Assembly: GCF_000568255.1 (NCBI RefSeq)
Contig: NZ_KK037166.1
Coordinates: 6,042,580 to 6,081,382, forward strand
Reading direction: 5' to 3'
DNA: 38,803 nucleotides
Origin: Kutzneria sp. 744
GTDB lineage: Bacteria; Actinomycetota; Actinomycetes; Mycobacteriales; Pseudonocardiaceae
Position numbers and translations under genes: made by a program. Of the stretch, positions 5,403 to 36,089 are shown in pieces; position 1 is the stretch's first letter; the number at the start of each line of letters is the position of its first letter. Under the pieces are notes generated by a model that was given only the letters and a program-made list of their open reading frames with translations, was not told the DNA's origin and ran no database searches.

Positions 5403-6070
5403 GCGAGGATTCCTTGCCCGACAGCGAGTTGGGCCCGACCGAGTGGGTGCCGGCCGGCACCGAGGTCGGCGTCGGGCCGTGGGAGGGACCGTGGCCTCCT
5501 GACGCCCGCTACGACCCCGAGTTGCTGGCCGAGGGCGACCGGCGCAACGTCGTCGACCACTACCGGTACTGGCGGCGCGAGGAGATCGTCGCCGACCTCG
5601 ACCGCCGCCGGCACCCGTTCCACGTCGCCATCGAGAACTTCCAGCACGACCACAACATCGGCACCGTCGTCCGCACCGCCAACGCCTTCGCCGCCCAGGC
5701 CGTGCACATCGTCGGGCGGCGGCGGTGGAACCGGCGCGGGGCCATGGTCACCGACCGGTACCAGCACCTGCACCATCACGAGGACGTCGAGTCGCTGGTG
5801 GCCTTCGCGCGGGCGGAGCGGCTGGAGATCATTGCCGTGGACAACACCCCCGGCTCCGTGCGTATCGAGAACACCGCGCTGCCCCGGCGGTGTGTGCTGC
5901 TGTTCGGGCAGGAGGGGCCGGGGCTGTCCGCCGCCGCCCAGGCCTCCGCCGACATGGTCGTGTCGATCGCCCAGTTCGGGTCCACGCGGTCGGTCAACGC
6001 CGGTGTCGCCGCCGGCATCGTGATGCACACGTGGGTGGCGCAACACGCCGACCTTCATACGTCCTGGTGA
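5399..6070 (+). CDS. TrmH/SpoU-family RNA 2'-O-methyltransferase (intact copy)
   Basis: A 223-residue SAM-dependent ribose methyltransferase of the SPOUT class, matching the position of Rv0380c. The three knot motifs are present: motif 1 HNIGTVVRTANAF, motif 2 LLFGQEGPGLS, motif 3 SIAQFGSTRSVNAGVAAGIVMH, together forming the trefoil-knot SAM site and catalytic Arg/Asn residues. An N-terminal extension (about 60 residues, acidic and Trp/Pro-rich) precedes the catalytic domain. The GTG start overlaps the LemA-like stop by 4 bp. RNA target unknown. From base 5608 onward the gene is duplicated in tandem immediately downstream. Confidence 0.93.
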   Translation: MSEDSLPDSELGPTEWVPAGTEVGVGPWEGPWPPDARYDPELLAEGDRRNVVDHYRYWRREEIVADLDRRRHPFHVAIENFQHDHNIGTVVRTANAFAAQAVHIVGRRRWNRRGAMVTDRYQHLHHHEDVESLVAFARAERLEIIAVDNTPGSVRIENTALPRRCVLLFGQEGPGLSAAAQASADMVVSIAQFGSTRSVNAGVAAGIVMHTWVAQHADLHTSW

Positions 6071-6606
6071 TCACGGTGTCTGCGGAATCGATCAAGCGAT
6101 TTGACCGAAGGGAGCACCGGCACCCGTTCCACGTCGCCATCGAGAACTTCCAGCACGACCACAACATCGGCACCGTCGTCCGCACCGCCAACGCATCGCC
6201 GCCAGGCCGTGCACATCGTCGGGCGGCGGCGGTGGAACCGGCGCGGGGCCATGGTCACCGACCGGTACCAGCACCTGCACCATCACGAGGACGTCGAGTC
6301 GCTGGTGGCCTTCGCGCGGGCGGAGCGGCTGGAGATCATTGCCGTGGACAACACCCCCGGCTCCGTGCGTATCGAGAACACCGCGCTGCCCCGGCGGTGT
6401 GTGCTGCTGTTCGGGCAGGAGGGGCCGGGGCTGTCCGCCGCCGCCCAGGCCTCCGCCGACATAAAAAGTGTCGATCGCCCAGTTCGGGTCCACGCGGTCG
6501 GTCAACGCCGGTGTCGCCGCCGGCATCGTGATGCACACGTGGGTGGCGCAACACGCCGACCTTCATACGTCCTGGTGATCACGGTGTCTGCGGAATCGAT
6601 CAAGCG
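5608..6606 (+). repeat. Tandem partial duplication of the SpoU gene
   Basis: Copy 1 is 5608-6098 (491 bp) and copy 2 is 6117-6606 (490 bp), separated by 18 bp of unrelated sequence (6099-6116). Each copy carries the SpoU catalytic domain from HPFHVAIENF onward, the stop codon and 28 bp beyond it. The copies are otherwise identical by eye apart from two small scarred sites in copy 2: near 6195-6203 (a substitution and two single-base losses) and at 6463-6467 (AAAAA where copy 1 has GGTC). Confidence 0.95.
6117..6606 (+). pseudogene. Truncated, frameshifted second copy of the SpoU methyltransferase
   Basis: Lacks the first 70 or so codons of the intact gene and has no start signal of its own. 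Net loss of two bases near 6195-6203 moves the frame within motif 1 (RTANA then shift), and the GGTC to AAAAA change at 6463-6467 adds one base, shifting it again just before motif 3. The three SPOUT motifs therefore lie in three different frames and no functional knot can be made. The near-identity elsewhere implies a very recent duplication, or an artefact. Confidence 0.9.
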
Positions 6607-10801: not shown

Positions 10802-11782
10802 ATGGCCACCACCGCCAACGGAACCCGGGCCAGCTTCGGCGAGTACGTGCTGCGTACGCCCGCGGTCGGCCCGACCATCGCCCTTGTCGTCGCGGTTGTC
10901 GTGTTCTCCTTGTCCACCAGCACTTTCCTGGAACTCGACAACCTCTCGCTGGTCGTCGAGCAGTCGCTGGTGGTCGGCACGATGGCCCTGGGCCAGACGC
11001 TGATCATCCTCACCGCCGGCATCGACCTGGCCAACGCGGCCAACACCGTGCTGGCCACGCTGCTGATGGCCAAGCTGGTCGTCGGCGGCGCGCCGGCCTG
11101 GCTGGCGCTGATCGTCGGCATCGCCGCGGCCACCCTGATCGGGGCGCTGACCGGCGTGCTCGTCACCAACATCAAGCTGCCGCCGTTCATCGTGACGCTG
11201 GGCCTGCTGACCATTCTCACCGCGGTCAGCCGGATCTACACCGGAGAGTCCGTGCCGGTCAGCGACTCGCTGTTGTCCTGGCTGGGCACACGGCGCTACC
11301 TGTTCGGCGGCATCGAGGTCACCTACGGCATGACCTTGGCCCTCGTGATGTTCCTCGTCGTCTGGTACGCACTGAACAAAACGGGCTGGGGCAAGCATGT
11401 CTACGCCGTGGGCAACGAGCCCGAGGCGGCCCGGCTGTCCGGGATCAACGTGCAGCGCACGGTCATCGGCGTCTACATCATCGCCGGCCTGATCTACGGC
11501 ATCGCCGCGTGGCAGGCGCTGGGCCGCGTGCCCAACGCCGACCCGAACGCCTACCAGACGGCCAACCTGGACTCGATCACCGCGGTCGTCATCGGCGGCA
11601 CGAGCCTGTTCGGTGGCCGGGGAAGCGTGCTCGGCACGCTCGTCGGCGCGTTGATCGTCACGGTGCTGCGCAGCGGGCTCACACAGGCCGGCATCGACGA
11701 CCTGTACCAGAACGTGGCGACCGGCATCCTGGTGATCGCCGCCGTCGCGCTGGACCGGTTCACGCGAGGGAGGCAGCGATGA
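10802..11782 (+). CDS. Sugar ABC transporter permease (FrcC/RbsC-like)
   Basis: A 326-residue polytopic membrane protein of the branched-chain/ribose permease family with about eight to ten hydrophobic segments. Family signatures include [14 protein letters not shown] (normally GGIDLS), [30 protein letters not shown] (the cytoplasmic coupling loop) and [30 protein letters not shown]. The start is one base after the binding-protein stop, and its stop overlaps the ATPase start by 4 bp. It forms the translocation channel for the sugar captured by the lipoprotein. Confidence 0.93.
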
Positions 11783-12125
11783 CCGAGCCGATCTTGCAGG
11801 CCAGGGGCCTGGTCAAGCGGTACGGGCGCGTGACGGCGATCGACGGCGCCGACTTCGACCTGCTGCCCGGCGAGGTCCTGGCCGTGGTCGGCGACAACGG
11901 CGCCGGCAAGTCCAGCCTGATCAAGGCGTTGTCCGGGGCCGTGGTGCCGGATGCCGGCGAGATCAAGGTGGACGGCTCGGCGGTGCACTTCCGGGCCCGC
12001 TGGACGCCCGCCGGGCCGGGATCGAGACCGTGTACCAGGATCTGGCCCTCGCGCCGGCACTGGACATCGCCACGAACCTGTTCATGGGCCGAGAGAAGCG
12101 GCTCGACGGCTGGCGCGGCCGGTAC
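11779..12125 (+). pseudogene. Sugar ABC transporter ATPase, frameshifted and truncated (FrcA-like)
   Basis: Begins normally: ATG overlapping the permease stop, [46 protein letters not shown] with an intact Walker A. After AVHFR (about 11992-11995) the correct sequence continues only in another frame ([41 protein letters not shown], with the Q-loop), consistent with loss of one G in a GGGG run. At about 12125 homology stops and low-G+C DNA begins. The ABC signature, Walker B and H-loop, roughly 140 residues, are absent. As written the gene cannot make an active ATPase, so the importer would be dead unless another ATPase substitutes. Confidence 0.9.
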
Positions 12126-12884
12126 GGTCATGATTATTTGCTAGGAGAGCAAGAGTGAGTAGGCCCCAAATCTTACTGCCTCCCCTCTTTTACCCGGGTT
12201 GGACCATATACGGGATGCTCAGCGTGACATAGCCAGCTGATTTCGTCAAACAGTGCCTGGGTAAAAGCTCGTACAGACGACAATTTAAGTGAGTAGTTTT
12301 ACGAGGTGACGCCTCAGCCAATAGGCAGAACACTAACTGCCCTGAATGCAGGTGAGTCATCCTGAAGCTCTAGGTGGGATGGCCAGTATTTAATGATCGG
12401 GCTATGGCAGAGAGTAATATGATTTCTGGCAAGTACCGGCATTACTCCGCAACTTAATGTATTTGAAAGTCTGCTTAAAGGAGTTGATCGGCCGAAGCAA
12501 ACTGGTCGTCACCTCACCTGTGTCAACGCCGCGGTCCATACAGGTTGAACGTTCATCCCGGATCGGGTGCTTCCCAATAACGAAAAACGCAACTCTGTGA
12601 CGAGTCTACTAGGAGGCGTTATTCTCCCATCCCCACTTCAGCGAGAGTTGGTCCAAGCCTCTAGAATTTATGGCGAGCTCTCAAGACCGGATCACGCCCA
12701 CCGTGCTAGGCCTCCGGGTACTTGTAAACGCTTTGCAGGGATTACCGTTCTAAGTTGTAACCTAACGCTATATTAAAGTTTGATATGTGGTATGAATGCT
12801 GATGTTGTCGTAATTCGCAAATATCCTATATGCGAACGAGATGCGCGATGATCCGGGGGCGGTTATAGGAAGTTTCACCTTCGA
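12126..12884. other. Low-G+C orphan segment 1 replacing the end of the ATPase and start of the kinase gene
   Basis: About 760 bp at roughly 45-50% G+C by eye (about 47% over two 60-base rows that I counted), against about 70% on both sides. It has frequent stops in all frames, no convincing coding frame, no terminal inverted repeats, no target duplication and no tRNA-like or phage-like features. The edges are placed by loss of protein similarity and could shift by about 10 bp. The segment substitutes for the missing ATPase C-terminus and kinase N-terminus instead of being a simple insertion. Confidence 0.85.
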
Positions 12885-13607
12885 GCGATCGCCGCTGTCG
12901 CGGTGGCCGCCCTCGGCGGCATCCCGACGTTGATCACCGGGCTCGGCGCCCATCCGCTGGCCATGCTGGCCTTGCGGGACCTGGATGATCACGGCGTGAC
13001 CGTGCTGGATCTGTTGCCGGCCAAGCAGGATCCGCCGACCGTGAGCGCCGTGACGGTGCGGGACCGGGACGGCGAGCGGACCGTGGTGTCGCACAATGCC
13101 GCCGGCACAACGATTTCCCCGCCGGTGGAGATCCTGGAGGCCGACGCCGTCCTCGTCGACGGGCACCATCCGGCGCTGGCGTTGCGGGTGGCCCGGGCGA
13201 CGGCGCCGACCGTGCTCGACGCCGGCAGCCTCAAGGACGTGCACTCCGAACTGCTGCCGCTGGTGGACGTCTGCGCCTGCTCGGCGAATTACCCTTACAG
13301 CACAAGGGAATTGCATGACCGTGGCGTGCCGGTCGTGATCCGCACCCATGGCCCCGGCGCCGTCGAATGGTCGTGTGGCGGGAAGACCGGCGTGGTCGAG
13401 GCCCAGCGGGTCGCCGCCCGGGACACCTCCGGCGCCGGCGACGTCTGGCACGGGGCGCTGACGTTCGGCATCGGCCGGTTGGGCCGTGTGCCCACCGCCG
13501 ACGACCTGCCCGGGCTGATCGACCTGGCCAACCGGGTCGCGTCGGTCAAGGTGCGCCACGTCGGCCCGCGCGGCTGGGTGGACGAGGTTCGAGGGGGCAG
13601 TTGGTGA
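12885..13607 (+). pseudogene. PfkB-family sugar kinase, N-terminus lost
   Basis: The visible frame starts in the middle of the family's A-A-x-A-x-x-A-x-x-LGG helix (AIAAVAVAALGGIPTLITGLG), so about 35-40 N-terminal residues, including the first substrate-binding strand, are replaced by the low-G+C DNA. The rest is well preserved to the C-terminal anion hole and catalytic Asp in RDTSGAGDVWHGAL. A GTG at 12903 is available but would give an incomplete protein with no evident ribosome-binding site. Intact relatives phosphorylate fructose, ribose or similar sugars, here presumably the imported one. The stop overlaps the next gene's GTG by 4 bp. Confidence 0.85.
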
Positions 13608-18169: not shown

Positions 18170-20117
18170 TTACTCCGAGTAGCCCAGCCGCACGTCGTGA
18201 ACTGCTTCCTGACCTGCGGAAACACGCAGCGCGGCGGCCACCGGCGGGTAGCCGCTGGCGATCACCGTGTAGTCCCCTTCGGACAGATCACCGAAGTTGT
18301 ACTGCCCGTCCGCACCGGTGGTGGTGGCCGCGACGACCTGCCCGTCCGGCGCGACCAGGGTCACGCGGGCGTCGGACAGCGGGTCGCCGGCGTTGTTGCG
18401 GGCGATGCCGGCCAGGGTGGCGCCGCCGGCCAGTTCGACGTCGGCCCGGGTGGTGCCGGTGTCGCCGATGCTGACGGGCATGGCGGCGGGCCGGAACGAC
18501 TCGGCGCTGACGACGAGGGTGTACTCGCCGCCGACCAGCTCGGCGAACTGGTACGAGCCGCCGCCGTCGGTGGACCGCGAGGCCACGACCTCGCCGCGGA
18601 CGTCGGCCAGCGTCACGGTGGCCTCGACCACCGGGGCGCCGCCGAGCGCCGAGACGACGCCGACCAGGCCGGCGGTGCCGGTGAGCACCACGTCGAAGCT
18701 GACCGGGGCGCCGTTGACCACGACGGTCGAGGCCTGCGGCTGGTGCGAGCCGGCCGACGCGATCAGCACGTAGGTGCCGTTGGCCGGGGCGGCCAGGTCG
18801 TAGCCGCCGTCCTGCCCGCTGACGGTCCGCCCGACCTGCTTGCCGTTGAGGTCGATCACGGTCAGCGCGGCGGAGTGCACCGGGCTGCCGTCGGGCCGCC
18901 GCACGAAGCCGGTGAGCGGAGTGCCGATCAGGGTGCCGGCCAGGTGTGTGTGACCGTTTCCGTTGCCATTGCCGTTCATGGCGTGCTTGCCGTTGGTGTC
19001 GAACGGCTCGGTGGCGCTGGCGACCGCCGCCGGCACGGGCTCATCCGTGGTCAGCACGATGCCGCCTTCCTCGGCGGCCTGCGCCTGGATGCCGGACTGC
19101 GTGCGCAGCGGCACCTCCTTGGTGAAGACCGTCAGGATGAAGGCCACGGCGGCCACGATCGCGGCGCCGATGAACACGATGTGCATCGCGTTCGTGAAGC
19201 CCTCCTGGAACGGCTGGGCCAGGATCGCCGGGTTGAGCTTCTGGATGAACGACGAGTCCTGCAGCGCCCCGCCCGCGTCGTTGCCGCCCTTGAGCGCGGC
19301 GAACAGCATGGCGTTGCTGGGGTCCTGCACGACCGACGGCGTGTGGATGGCGGTCTGGAACGCCTGCGTCGGCACGATGGCCTGGAAGGCGTCGGCGATC
19401 TTGCCGCCGACCGTGCTGAACAGCAGCGACAGGAAGACGGCGGTGCCGACGGTGCCGCCCATGGACCGGAAGAAGGTCGCCGACGAGGTGGCCACGCCCA
19501 TGTCCCGCGGCGGCACCGCGTTCTGGGTGGCCAGGGTCAGCGTCTGCATGCACAGGCCGAGCCCGATGCCGAAGATCGCCATGTAGATGTCGACCTCGAC
19601 CAGGCTGGTGTCCCAGTGCAGCTGGGTGGCGAACAGCACGGCGCCCGCCCCGAGCAGCACGGTGCCGATGACCGGGAACAGCTTGTAGCGGCCGGTGCGG
19701 GACGTGATGATGCCGGACCCGAGGGAGGCGACCATCATCGACAGCACGAACGGCAGCATCAGCAGGCCGGACTGGGTCGGGGTGTTGCCCTTCACGATCT
19801 GCAGGTACTGCGGGATCATCGCGATCCCGCCGAACATCGCCACGCCGACCAGCACGCCGGTGACCGAGGTCAGGCTGAACACCGAGCTGCGGAACAGCCG
19901 CAGCGGGATCAGGGCGTCGTCCTTGGCGTAGTGCTCGGCGACCACGAAGGCGATCAGGCCCAGGGCGCCGACGATGTAGCAGATCCAGGCGTTCTGCGAG
20001 GTCCAGCCCCATTCGCGGCCCTGCTCGGCCACGATCAGCAGCGGCACGAGGCCGATGGTGATGAAGGCCGAACCCAGCCAGTCGATGCGCCGCTTCACGC
20101 TGGCGTTGGACGTGACC
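18170..20117 (-). pseudogene. DHA2-family MFS exporter with C-terminal carboxypeptidase-regulatory-like repeats, 3' part
   Basis: This frame holds the second half of a 14-helix EmrB/QacA-type drug:H+ antiporter, starting at KRRIDWLGSAFITIGLVPLLI and running through TQSGLLMLPFVLSMMVAS, MGVATSSATFFRSMGGTVGTAVF to the last helix (HIVFIGAAIVAAVAFILTVF). After a linker with an Asn-Gly run (NGNGNGNGH) come three beta-sandwich repeats of the carboxypeptidase regulatory-like type (PLTGFVRRPDGSPVHSAALTVIDLNGKQVGRTVSGQDGGY...; second and third copies end GGSYQFAELVGGEYTLV and DGQYNFGDLSEGDYTVIAS). The gene is split from its N-terminal part (20711-21088) by low-G+C DNA that replaces about 80-90 residues, so no intact exporter can be made. 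Confidence 0.88.
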
Positions 20118-20710
20118 GGATTGGAATACACGTTTCGTTATATTGTATCGAACGGCGGCTGGCCCCGTAGATGTGCGGAAAAACGTGACTTTCCCGGTGG
20201 CGCACACTGCTTGAAATTCAGATACAGTAACCGTCTTGTCAGAGGCGCATCGACGCCCCCCGTACATATGGTCGCTTTCTTGGTTAACCCGTACTCGGGC
20301 CAAGGCCGAGCTCTGAATCCAAAACTGTGAATAACGCGAGCGCGCAGCTATTATACTGCCGCAGGCATTCCATTGATCGGCCCCACGTTTACCATTCAGC
20401 CACATAAGCGAGTCTATCTGCAAGATCGTTTATAAGACACTATTGGTCAGTCGTTTTACGTATTATCCAGGAGGTAAGCAACCTAAGTATGATCTTAAAC
20501 GTCCCACCGTGGATCAATAAGGACTTCTACAGACTCCCTTACGAATAATACCGCTCCACCCCTGTTTAAGAATGAACAAACCGTTCCACGCGTAAGTATT
20601 GTTGCTGGAGTCACATGCTTTACTAGCAGATATTGAGATGTGTTTAGCCCACCCACTCCCGCGCAAGGCCCATATGACTGGTTTATAAAGCGTTATAGCC
20701 TGCGTAATCT
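20118..20710. other. Low-G+C orphan segment 2 inside the exporter gene
   Basis: About 590 bp with G+C near half, stops in all frames, no terminal inverted repeats, no target duplication and no recognisable gene. On the minus strand the exporter reads well to AAFRAFQ (20711) and resumes at about NPVTSNASVKRRIDW (from about 20117). The intervening exporter sequence (expected about 250 bp covering helices 4-6) is missing, so this is a replacement. It resembles segment 1 in composition and lack of structure but shares no extended sequence with it. Confidence 0.85.
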
Positions 20711-21088
20711 CTGAAAGGCCCGGAACGCGGCCAGCTCGTACATCGAGGTGGAGAAGGTGCAGGCCAGCGAGCCGACCACGAAGATGATGATCGCGGCCAG
20801 GTAGAACGGCTTGCGGCCGTACATGTCGGACAGCTTGCCGTACAGCGGCGTCGCGATGGTCGAGGTGATCAGGTACGCCGTGGTGGCCCAGGCCTGCTGG
20901 TCGAGGCCGTGCAGCTGGTCGGCGATGGTCCTGATCGAGGTGGAGACGATGGTCTGGTCCAGCGCCGCCAGGAACATGCCCAGCATGAGGCCGGACAGGA
21001 TGGTGAGGATCTGGCGGTGGGTGAAGGTGCCGGGGACGTGCTCTGCCTTGGAAGTAGGCGCCGCCACCGGAGCGGCCGTGCTCGTCAT
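20711..21088 (-). pseudogene. DHA2-family MFS exporter, 5' part
   Basis: N-terminal 126 residues of the same exporter: a polar leader, then FTHRQILTILSGLMLGMFLAALDQTIVSTSIRTIADQL (helix 1 with the DHA2 LDQTIV motif), WATTAYLITSTIATPLYGKLSDMYGRKPFYLAAIIIFVVGSLACTFSTS (motif A between helices 2 and 3) and YELAAFRAFQ, where similarity ends. ATG 21088 overlaps the MarR stop by 4 bp (ATGA) with AAAGG upstream, so it is translationally coupled to its regulator. Confidence 0.88.
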
Positions 21089-31532: not shown

Positions 31533-31571
31533 CAGTTGGTCCAGCTCGGGGTCTAGGGCCTGTTTCAGATG

Positions 31572-32012
31572 TCAGAGCCACTCGTTGATCGCCGCGATAA
31601 CGACCGTGGCCTCATACCGGACAGCGAGCTTGTCGTACCGAGTGGCCACGGCCCGGTTCCGCTTGAGTCGGTTGATGCCGCACTCCACAGCATGCCGCCG
31701 CTTGTAGATCTCCTTGTCGAACGCCGGCCGACGACCACCACGCGCACCACGGTTCTTGCGATGGAGGATCTGGTCCGCCTTCTCCGGAATCGTGCACCGA
31801 ACACCCCGCCGCCGCAGGTAGCAGCGATTGGCGCGGGAGCCGTACGCCTTGTCCCCCAAGACCCGATCCGGGCGCGTCCGCGCCCGCCCCCGACCCAGAC
31901 GGGGCACCCTGATTCGCTCCAACACCGTCTGGAACTGCGGCGAGTCACCCCGCTGCCCGGCCGTGACCACGACCGACAACGGCTTCAGCCCCTGCTCGGT
32001 CGCCAGGTGCAC
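31572..32012 (-). CDS. IS5-family transposase, OrfB (catalytic C-terminal part)
   Basis: Continues the transposase after the frameshift: [26 protein letters not shown], the second catalytic Asp in [13 protein letters not shown], and the Glu in [33 protein letters not shown], completing the DDE triad. Similarity extends upstream of the first ATG (LTTKVH), so translation is expected by frameshifting from OrfA and not independently. Confidence 0.88.
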
Positions 32013-32020
32013 CTTCGTGG

Positions 32021-32446
32021 TCAGCCCGCCCCGGGACCGGCCGATCCCATGGTCATCCGGCTCGGTGTCGACTCCACCCGGAGATTCACGCTGGTCAGCC
32101 CCTTTTTACGCGCGCCAGCGGCATGCTGGTGCGCGCGAGCCACAGTGGAGTCGACGCTCACATCCCAGGTGATCAGCCCGGCCGCGTCAGCCTCGGCCTG
32201 CAACCGGGTCAGGATCTGTTTCCAAGTCCCGTCGCGCTGCCAGCGTCGGAACAGGCCATACACGGTCTGCCACGGCCCGTACCGGTCCGGCAGGTCTCGC
32301 CACTGCACACCCGTCCGCACCCGGAACCGGATCCCGTTGATGAGTTGCCGTTTCGGGTGTTTGGGCGGGCGTCCAGACTTCTTGCCCTTGGGTAGCAAGG
32401 GTTCCAGCTTTGCCCACTGCTCGTTCGTCAGATCACCACGACCCAC
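32021..32446 (-). CDS. IS5-family transposase, OrfA
   Basis: A 141-codon frame with the N-terminal part of the transposase: [71 protein letters not shown] is the DUF4096-type domain, followed by the first catalytic Asp in [23 protein letters not shown]. The last 15-20 residues are out of the family frame ([16 protein letters not shown]); the proper continuation [21 protein letters not shown] is in the other frame. A ribosomal frameshift around 32050-32080 would fuse the two, the usual strategy in this group. Confidence 0.88.
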
Positions 32447-32488
32447 CCGAAGATCATCTCAAACCGAGATCAACTTCTGAAACAGGCC

Positions 32489-33046
32489 CTAGTTGGCCAT
32501 CGCCTTCTGCAGGGCGTCCAGCGCGCGGCTGGCCGTGGACTTCACGGTGCCCTTGGAGATGCCGGTGGCGTCGGCGATCTCGGCCTCGGACAGGTCCCCG
32601 TAGTAGCGCAGCACGAGCACCTCACGCTGGCGCGGCGGCAGCTTGGACAGGGCGTTGACCACGGCCTGGTGCTCGGCCGTCAGCATCGCCAGGCTCTCCG
32701 CCGAGCGGGCGTTGGCGGTGTGCGGCGGGGTGTAGTCGCGGGCGGTCTTGCGGCGGCGCAGCACCGACCGGCTGCCGTTGACCACCGCGGTCCGCAGGTA
32801 GCCGACCGCCGCCTGGGCGTCCCGCAGGCCGCCCCAGTTGCGGTGCAGGCCGGTGAAGGCCTCCTGCACCACGTCCTCGGCCGTCGCCGGCTCGTCCACC
32901 AGCAGGATCGCCAACCGGACCAACCGCATCCGGTGCTGGCGGTAGAGGTCCTCCAAGGTCAGCGGGGCAGCCGTGGAAGGTTCCGGGCCGTCCACCGCCC
33001 GGAGGCTGGAGAGGGTCCGCTCAACGCTGTTCGGCTGCACGTCCAC
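32489..33046 (-). CDS. ECF RNA polymerase sigma factor (SigE-like)
   Basis: A 185-residue group-4 sigma factor from GTG 33046; ATG 33073 would add nine residues but leaves only 36 bp for two divergent promoters. Region 2 is LEDLYRQHRMRLVRLAILLVDEPATAEDVVQEAFTGLHRNW; region 4 is ALSKLPPRQREVLVLRYYGDLSEAEIADATGISKGTVKSTASRALDAL, with the -35 recognition helix. No anti-sigma factor gene is adjacent. The last base of its TAG stop is contributed by the IS; the pre-insertion site would have given the same stop, so the protein is unchanged. A YciI-like gene diverges from it. Confidence 0.9.
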   Translation of the reverse strand: MDVQPNSVERTLSSLRAVDGPEPSTAAPLTLEDLYRQHRMRLVRLAILLVDEPATAEDVVQEAFTGLHRNWGGLRDAQAAVGYLRTAVVNGSRSVLRRRKTARDYTPPHTANARSAESLAMLTAEHQAVVNALSKLPPRQREVLVLRYYGDLSEAEIADATGISKGTVKSTASRALDALQKAMAN

Positions 33047-33394: not shown

Positions 33395-34288
33395 TTACCG
33401 GGCGCGCCGGCTCTCGAAACCGGCGGCGCCGCCCGGGCCGACCGGCCGCGAGGCTTCCGCGCCACGGACCTTGATGTCCTCCAGCGCGGCCTGGTCGGCG
33501 TCCTTCGCGCCCATCGCCGAGATCGGCAGCGACAGCTGGTTGACGATGCCGCGGAACAGCTTGAGGCCGCCGACCCAGCCCGGCACGTGGATGGCCTTGG
33601 CCCGGCGGTTGATGCCCGCGACCACGGCCTTGCCCACGTCGGACACCTGGTAAGTGCGGCCCAGCGGGCCGGGCAGGCGGCTGCGCATCTTGCCGAACAC
33701 GGGGTGCTGGTCGGCGCTGGTGACCATGTCGGTGGCGATCCAGGAGAAGTACGCGGTGCCCACATCCACGCCGAGATGGCGGACCTCGGCCCGCAGGCTG
33801 TCGGAGAAGGCGTCGACGCCGGCCTTGCTGGCTGCGTAGGCGGCCATGCCGGGGGCGTGTGAGATGGCGGCCAGCGAGGACACCACCAGGCAGTAACCGC
33901 GGCTGGCGATCAGGTGGGGCAGGCAGACGCGCACGGTCCGCCACACCCCGAGCAGGTTGATCTCGATGGTCCGCTCGAACGCCGCCGGGTCGATGGAGCG
34001 GACGAAGCCGGTGGGCGCGATGCCGGCGTTGGCCATCACCACGTCGATCCGCCCGTAGCGCTCCATCACGCCGCCGACCGCGGTTTCCAGGGCTTCCCAG
34101 TCGGTGACGTCGGCCTCCCAGGCGCCGGCGTCCGGGCCGCACTCCTCGGCCGTCGCCGCCAGCAGCTCCTTTTCCAGCCCGACCAGGGCGACCTTGGCCC
34201 CGAGCGCCGCCAGGCGGCGCGCCGTCTCGGCCCCGATGCCCCGGGCCGCGCCGGTGATCAGCACAACCTTGCCGGCCATGGTGTTCAT
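33395..34288 (-). CDS. SDR oxidoreductase with C-terminal extension
   Basis: A 297-residue classical SDR: VVLITGAARGIGAETARRLAALGAKVAL, DVVMANAGIAPTG, VVSSLAAISHAPGMAAYAASKAGVDAF (catalytic Ser, Tyr, Lys), and a long C-terminal tail (GGLKLFRGIVNQLSLPISAMGAKDADQA...) that resembles mycobacterial SDRs linked to lipid metabolism. GAGGAGG lies 11 nt before ATG 34288; in-frame GTG 34294 has better spacing and is a real alternative. Promoter region carries a possible TetR-type motif. Confidence 0.9.
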   Translation of the reverse strand: MNTMAGKVVLITGAARGIGAETARRLAALGAKVALVGLEKELLAATAEECGPDAGAWEADVTDWEALETAVGGVMERYGRIDVVMANAGIAPTGFVRSIDPAAFERTIEINLLGVWRTVRVCLPHLIASRGYCLVVSSLAAISHAPGMAAYAASKAGVDAFSDSLRAEVRHLGVDVGTAYFSWIATDMVTSADQHPVFGKMRSRLPGPLGRTYQVSDVGKAVVAGINRRAKAIHVPGWVGGLKLFRGIVNQLSLPISAMGAKDADQAALEDIKVRGAEASRPVGPGGAAGFESRRAR

Positions 34289-34338
34289 GCCCACACGCGC
34301 CTCCTCGCCGACTGCCTCTAGGGGCACCGTAACGCAAC

Positions 34339-34364
34339 CTACCGTCAGTAAGCTACTGGCGAGT
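34339..34364. promoter_or_regulatory. Possible TetR-type operator in front of the SDR
   Basis: Two adjoining related half-palindromic motifs, CTACCGTCAGTAAG (34339-34352) and CTACTGGCGAGT (34353-34364), about 50 bp upstream of the SDR start. They resemble sites seen before actinobacterial lipid-metabolism genes; no cognate regulator is next to it. Confidence 0.35.
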
Positions 34365-34856
34365 TCAATACGCTGCACGGCGAACGGCCGGGGCGCGCGG
34401 GAGTCGGCGGAGGGTGCGGAAGGGAAGTTGGAAGTGGCAAAAAATCGCCCTCGGCCTCGACATATGTCGGGGGTCGGTGAACGATGTTTCCCGGTTCCCC
34501 TTCAACCGTTCGAACCCTTCCCGCGGGGCCGTCAAGGTCCGATGTTCCGATCTTCACCGCGATTCGAACATAGTCCTGAACCAGCCCGCGCTGCCGGGCG
34601 TGATCGTCCGGGGCAGACCCTTCGGCCCGAACTGCCGGTCACCCCTTTCCGGATCGGCCCTGCGACCGTACGATCACGGAAAGTCAACTGTGAATGATGC
34701 GATCGATATCTGAATGAGCTGGGTTGACGGGATAGCGCTGGCTACGGTGAGAGAGGAAGAGCCTGCCAGGGGTGACGGGCTACCGGACGAAACGACAGGA
34801 AACGAACTGTCTCCGCTACTGGGAGGGCGGGGTACGGGGGAGACGAGGGGCGCAAG
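34365..34856. other. Intergenic region without a convincing gene
   Basis: About 490 bp of somewhat lower G+C between the divergent SDR and MFS genes. Short open frames here lack actinobacterial codon bias. A 12-bp palindrome CGACATATGTCG is at 34459-34470 and a TTGACG -35-like hexamer at 34724-34729; no clear -10 at normal spacing. Confidence 0.5.
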
Positions 34857-36089
34857 TTGGAGGGGACCGGGCGCGCTGCCAGGTACCGGGACGTTTTCGC
34901 CAACGGCGAGTTCCGGGCCTTGTGGCTGGCCGAGCTCGTTTCCACCGCGGGCGATCAGATCGCCCGCGTCGCATTGTCACTTCTTGTGTTCGATCGAACA
35001 CGCTCCGCTGCACTGGCCGCGCTGACCTTCGCGTTGACCATGCTGCCGGCGTTGTTCGGGCCCCTGCTCGCCGGCCTCGCGGACCGTTATCCGCGGCGCA
35101 ACGTCATGATGACCGCCGATATCACGCGCGCGGCGCTGATGGCGATCATGGCGGTGCCGGGAGTTTCGCTCATAGCGCTTTTTGCCCTGCTTTTCATCAC
35201 TCAGCTGCTCGGTTCGCCGTCGAATGCGGCGCGCGGAGCCCTGTTGGCCGATGTTCTTTCGGGTGACGAACTCACCGTGGGGCAAAGCCTGCGGGCGGTG
35301 GTCGGCCAGATCTCGCAGGTCGCCGGATTCGCCGGCGGCGGTTTCCTGGTCACCCTGCTGACGCCGTACGGCGCGCTGGCCGCCAACGCGGTGAGCTTCG
35401 CCGCCTCGGCGGCCCTGATCATGCTCGGCGTGCGGCCGCGGCCGGCGGTGGGCTCGGGCGGTGAGCAGATGTCGCTGTGGACATCGACCCGCCGGGGAGC
35501 CCGACTGGTGTGGGCCGACCGGCAGCTGCGCACGCTGGCCTTGATGATCTGGATGATCGGCCTGCCGGTGGCGGCGGAGGGGCTCGTCGTGCCCTACCTG
35601 TCGGCCCTGGGACACACGCCGACGCCGAATCCGGTGGATGTGGGCTGGCTGCTCGCGGCCACGCCGGTCGGCGCCATCGTCGGCGCGCTGATCATCACGC
35701 GCGTGCCGCCCGAGCAGCGGCTACGGCTGATCGGTCCGCTGGCGGCCCTGTCGGGGCTGCCGCTGTTCATCTGTGCGCTGGAGCCCGATCTCGTGGTCTC
35801 CTGCGTGTTGTTCGCGCTGTCCGGGGTGGCCGCGTCCTACATGGTCGTAGCGCCGCCCGCGTTCATTCAGCGCACACCCGTCGTCGGCAGGGGGCAGGCG
35901 ATCGGGTTGATGTCCTCGGGAGCGATCGCGGCGCAAGGCGTGGCCGTGGCGCTCGCGGGGGTGCTGGCAGACGGGATGGGGCCGGCCGGCACCATCGCGA
36001 TCGCGGGCCTGGCGGCAGTGCTCGCCGGGCTCGGGCTCTCCGTCGCCTGGCGGCGGAGCCGGCTTGAAGAGGTCGGTCATGCTGCCTAG
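34857..36089 (+). CDS. MFS transporter, EntS/MFS_3-like
   Basis: A 410-residue, 12-helix transporter. N-terminus YRDVFANGEFRALWLAELVSTAGDQIARVALSLLVFDRTRSAALAALTFALTMLPALF and LAGLADRYPRRNVMMTADITRAALMAI (motif A between helices 2 and 3) are characteristic of the enterobactin-exporter/macrolide-efflux subgroup. TTG 34857 is the start, with AGGGG 6-7 nt upstream. No regulator or biosynthetic gene is adjacent, so the cargo is unknown. It ends at a strong terminator. Confidence 0.9.
   Translation: MEGTGRAARYRDVFANGEFRALWLAELVSTAGDQIARVALSLLVFDRTRSAALAALTFALTMLPALFGPLLAGLADRYPRRNVMMTADITRAALMAIMAVPGVSLIALFALLFITQLLGSPSNAARGALLADVLSGDELTVGQSLRAVVGQISQVAGFAGGGFLVTLLTPYGALAANAVSFAASAALIMLGVRPRPAVGSGGEQMSLWTSTRRGARLVWADRQLRTLALMIWMIGLPVAAEGLVVPYLSALGHTPTPNPVDVGWLLAATPVGAIVGALIITRVPPEQRLRLIGPLAALSGLPLFICALEPDLVVSCVLFALSGVAASYMVVAPPAFIQRTPVVGRGQAIGLMSSGAIAAQGVAVALAGVLADGMGPAGTIAIAGLAAVLAGLGLSVAWRRSRLEEVGHAA

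Follow-up and report, generated by a model that had tools for sequence, protein, structure and literature searches.

What stands in the genome of Kutzneria sp. 744 where the end of an ABC transporter ATPase gene and the start of a PfkB-family kinase gene would be expected in a sugar operon? In this study, we examined a window of 38,803 nucleotides (contig NZ_KK037166.1), the whole stretch of DNA analysed, in which the two genes are separated by about 763 unstructured letters of 49% G+C, hereafter block 1 (12126..12888, plus strand; chromosome 6054705-6055467), delimited by a generator test and a stream match. Our findings support a model where block 1 fills a gap in a scaffold of a draft assembly, each missing base having been drawn by a program as (rand() modulo 4), a reading to which we assign a probability of about 99%. 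An earlier note, made from the letters alone, had offered an engineered replacement allele, a misassembly or filled gap, captured foreign DNA, and a non-coding element as candidates. The filled gap stands, in the form of a pseudo-random fill; the three that are not artefacts are practically excluded, since the block matches the generator exactly and its stream continues elsewhere in the assembly. What that note had observed also holds, but two further filler blocks and a one-base deletion in the ATPase gene had escaped it.

The Locus in Congeners

The similarity of congeners to the window ends at 12119 and resumes at 12890. Upstream of the first point identity to the window is 94% for G002 and 93% for G005; from the second point on it is 88% and 90%, respectively. 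Between the two lie 770 letters in the window versus 613 bp in G002, 613 bp in G005, and 612 bp in G006, close to the 500-600 bp of native sequence that had been estimated as lost when the segment was called a replacement. Comparison with the operon of relatives, proposed at the same time, gave contiguous sequence in the congeners: the flanks of the filler adjoin in all three, with ordinary sequence between. At the site G002 has both genes intact, with the remainder of an ABC ATPase of 276 aa (PF00005) followed by the beginning of a PfkB kinase of 281 aa (PF00294), and G005 aligns with G002 through the whole stretch, across both genes. What remains of the ATPase gene in the window is its start (11780..12125, plus strand, from the alignment to G002 and G005), and the PfkB-family carbohydrate kinase gene is preserved from 12889 to 13607 (plus strand, from the comparison with G002 and PF00294), about the first 43 codons lying under the filler when G002 is taken as reference. 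Relative to G002 and G005, the ATPase start has a one-base deletion near 11995 (11990-12000), and its frame is therefore broken ahead of block 1 too; this deletion may come from a misread run of G. The living strain probably has complete ATPase and kinase genes. The neighbouring permease has its best named match in Kutzneria sp. CA-103260 (98%). Farther along the window, about 940 bp of native-like G+C (0.66) at 31556-32494, not a generator block, correspond to 3 bases in G005, and the alignments of G002 and G006 also skip them.

Composition and Database Searches

The abrupt fall in G+C and the end of coding similarity on both sides, as first described, are borne out by composition and by the congener alignments, which stop and resume at the block. 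From 12126 to 12884 the base frequencies are A.256, C.233, G.253, and T.258, and dinucleotides occur at independence (chi-square 2.7); a value as low was found in 2.2% of 2,000 simulated uniform sequences. Among 2,080 congener windows the lowest chi-square was 5.7, and equally long windows from E. coli K-12 (n=493) had a median of 29.7. Could part of the operon have been replaced by captured foreign DNA or by a new kind of non-coding mobile element? The sharp compositional change and the lack of congener similarity inside block 1 would fit such an origin, and composition alone neither settles the matter nor constitutes proof of artificial letters, because loose limits for uniform, independent letters also admit 22 of the 493 E. 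coli windows. The dinucleotide value of block 1, however, was reached by none of these windows (lowest 9.7), the collections searched returned no database match, and the letters are exactly the output of a generator whose state, recovered from block 1, predicts other blocks (see below). We thus consider this origin extremely improbable.

As for the searches themselves, the nucleotide comparison with plasmids and phages that had been suggested for the segment matched no known element, giving only chance matches of 21-33 bases, and the E. coli genomes gave no match to block 1. A single exact pattern from the block was tried on each of two further collections and was absent, from genome contigs (30 letters) as from viral contigs (20 letters). 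An insertion sequence or other mobile element was rejected: there is no transposase, there are no direct repeats, the sequence of block 1 occupies a single place in the genome, and native bases were lost rather than interrupted. This agrees with the original description, which had seen no transposase, no terminal repeats, and no target duplication. The longest open reading frame listed wholly within block 1 encodes 69 aa, no direct repeats were found in 12000-13000, and the two weak inverted repeats of that interval lie away from the block ends. A structured non-coding RNA was likewise rejected, no family scoring above threshold; a Twister-sister match at 12871-12982 stayed below it (14.3 bits versus 34) and lies mostly in the kinase gene. 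No tRNA that could offer a target site was found in the window.

A Generator behind the Letters

If a letter is the value of rand() or random() in the C library modulo 4, a lag-3/31 rule must hold, under which adding the letters found 3 and 31 places before a given one, with a carry of 0 or 1, yields that letter modulo 4. Over 756 letters of block 1 this additive-feedback rule is obeyed at 725 of 725 testable positions. With all 24 letter codes allowed, the best agreement in controls was 0.587 for native congener DNA (200 windows), 0.560 for E. coli (100 windows), and 0.566 for uniform sequences from a Mersenne twister (n=100). Under the code A,C,G,T = 0,1,2,3 the carry takes only the values 0 (548 positions) and 1 (177 positions), the share of the latter being near the quarter expected for lowest bits. 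The hidden low bit can be solved under the same code: 354 linear equations reach full rank 31 without contradicting one another, and block 1 gives 0 violations of the recurrence modulo 8. In 15 other stretches (14 distinct places) there were again 0 violations each, in the + direction as given. Across nine stretches the lag-3/31 agreement was 1.000 in seven, 0.998 in locus L051, and 0.970 at block 6214208; in these last two the shortfall comes from native letters at an edge, and the trimmed versions are without violation. Two other schemes were rejected. The complementary letter code gave 531 inconsistent equations and 451 violations, and lrand48 modulo 4 reached at best 36 of 60 letters (all 2^19 low states, 60 letters from each of nine stretches). 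Block 1 is a run of consecutive outputs, modulo 4, of a lag-3/31 generator of the rand()/random() type.

We also searched for the seed, with a positive control in which a known seed was recovered. Seed 1 was not found within 8.7e9 outputs, nor was any of 24 further small seeds within 6e8 outputs each. Stepping back from block 1 gave no match for seeds 1 to 100,000 within 6 million steps, for seeds 1.0e9 to 1.85e9 within 12 million steps, or for seeds 1 to 1.0e9 and 1.85e9 to 2^31-1 within 8 million steps. This negative outcome counts against the proposed reading, as does the shortfall of filler described below.

One Stream in the Window and across the Genome

Two further pieces of the same stream lie in the window, and the three follow one another in stream order as 6099-6120, 12125-12892, and 20102-20714. 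Agreement with the stream thus spans 12125-12892 at block 1, where a few letters at either end possibly agree by chance and the right edge can be placed only to within about 4 letters. The smallest piece, a filler block of about 20 letters (6099..6118, plus strand), was found by its stream match, which runs on to 6120, the edge being inferred; it corresponds to stream letters -20 to -1, and block 1 comes directly after, from letter 0, the two or three letters by which stream pieces overlap at their edges being taken as chance agreement. This small block separates two copies of about 489 bp (5610..6098 and 6119..6606, both plus strand, delimited by comparison of the copies and with congeners) that are 98.4% identical over 490 columns. 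Because G002 and G005 hold one copy, the flanks overlapping by 487 bases on G005, the duplication is probably false, two overlapping contig ends having been set side by side, as judged from the sequence comparison. A minimum gap fixed at 20 is a habit of some scaffolders. The second long block (20102..20714, plus strand, by stream match) starts 16 stream letters past the last letter agreeing with block 1, those 16 being absent from the window, and its site measures 272 bp in G002, G005, and G006 versus 611 in the window. At this place G002 has an uninterrupted minus-strand open reading frame of 1071 aa (L108 8480-11695), transporter-like by eye.

For the wider genome we compared 6 million stream letters with a sample of 60 stretches of 20 kb, that is, 1.2 Mb of 11.6 Mb. 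The state recovered from block 1 predicts the exact letters of other blocks, and 32 matches of at least 22 letters were found (8,894 letters), of which 29 are at least 60 letters long (8,820 letters), the two long blocks of the window included. Neither 640 kb of congener DNA nor 50 kb of E. coli DNA gave a stream match of at least 22 letters. About 0.8 chance match is expected (6.0 million stream letters x 2.33 million k-mers / 4^22), and a 22-letter minus-strand match at 6246370-6246391, isolated and out of order, is probably one; it is counted in the 32 matches and the 8,894 letters and left out of the 29. This abundance bears on the engineered replacement allele, by which scrambled DNA would have been placed on purpose in a living strain. 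A designer could indeed make a neutral spacer with a random-number function, yet 29 pieces of at least 60 letters turn up in a tenth of the genome, their lengths do not match the native ones, and the assembly is full of N runs, which leaves a deliberate construct vanishingly improbable.

The order of the pieces is informative as well. Stream index rises with coordinate in 0.20-2.21 Mb (3 pieces), 3.02-5.61 Mb (4 pieces), and 6.03-6.56 Mb (16 pieces), the second of these groups preceding the first in the stream. From 7.20 to 10.61 Mb all eight pieces lie on the minus strand, and their index decreases with increasing coordinate (the match at 6246370 aside). Some pieces are directly consecutive, as are stream letters 33782..34180 and 34181..34864. 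The stream between neighbours is often much longer than the filler there, amounting to about 6,800 letters from 6032580 to 6048678 and about 18,600 between 6085050 and 6193010; much filler must therefore have been lost, been closed later, or gone into unsampled parts. Between L017 15309 and L056 12386 (5.215-5.612 Mb) the index grows by some 12% of the distance, an indication that far more bases were formerly missing from the scaffolds than the present filler accounts for. A composition scan of the 60 loci returned 24 low-G+C stretches, of which 15 overlap generator pieces. The nine without overlap are three in L004 and one each in L026, L029, L030 (14015-15019), L031, L036, and L056 (918-2286), and low G+C alone is thus no mark of filler in this genome.

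Might the real bases under the filler be unusual, for instance an insertion or a deletion that broke the assembly? Nothing in the data points there. The filled stretch is a mere 157 letters or so longer than its counterpart in congeners, and such an excess is found at other sites: among 17 matches in 600 kb compared with G005, both flanks were placed for 12, and the filled stretch is longer than that of G005 at 11 of these 12; at 6410841 it measures 578 versus 5,249 bases in G005. We therefore hold unusual native bases at this locus to be very doubtful.

History of the Fill

The record is a single pseudo-chromosome of 11,646,492 bases (11.65 Mb) with many N runs, and the window is the exact stretch between two runs of exactly 100 N each. 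N runs that share a length of 100 commonly denote gaps of undefined size. The sampled 1.2 Mb contain 66 N runs (a few truncated where a stretch ends), of which 40 are exactly 100 long, with 29,607 N in all (2.5%); some of the 66 may be other than assembly gaps. No N occurs in 640 kb of congeners. In a published genome comparison, Kutzneria sp. 744 is given as 11.64 Mbp in 534 contigs, with a BUSCO value of 87.3%, far below the other strains compared (PMC10232511).

We propose that the generator letters replaced N characters, at the estimated gap length, in scaffolds made earlier, and that the filled scaffolds would afterwards have been arranged and inverted to form one pseudo-chromosome with new N gaps between them. 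The fill seems to predate this final arrangement, because the stream order departs from the coordinates and 7.20-10.61 Mb is reversed; the gaps of 100 N were probably added after it. The same facts bear on whether the letters were introduced in the copy of the genome that we analysed and not in the assembly work of the depositors. Our analysis rests on one copy of the record, which leaves room for this; nonetheless, a stream order that ignores the final coordinates makes the filler appear older, and N runs stay N in the same copy. An origin in the copy is accordingly very unlikely, and we retain a fill made during assembly.

In several respects such a fill resembles an ordinary N gap in a scaffold: block 1 lies between native pieces that adjoin in congeners, and the lengths are off (770 versus 613; 611 versus 272). 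Unlike in an N gap, the missing bases are written as A, C, G, and T, and they are mistaken for sequence by gene callers and readers alike. Some assemblers and 2-bit encodings swap non-ACGT letters for random bases, and the fill shares with that practice one uniform letter per missing base, taken from a library random function; here, however, the fill survived into the final sequence. A literature search on the random filling of gaps gave no relevant paper among those listed.

Implications

Block 1 is no biological feature of Kutzneria sp. 744, and its meaning is that of a data-quality warning only. Generator output that looks like sequence makes up about 0.7% of the sampled 1.2 Mb, besides the share of N, and gene calls, scans for low-G+C islands, and pseudogene counts on this assembly will be wrong at the filler. 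The lag-3/31 test is cheap, and it could flag such filler across public genomes.
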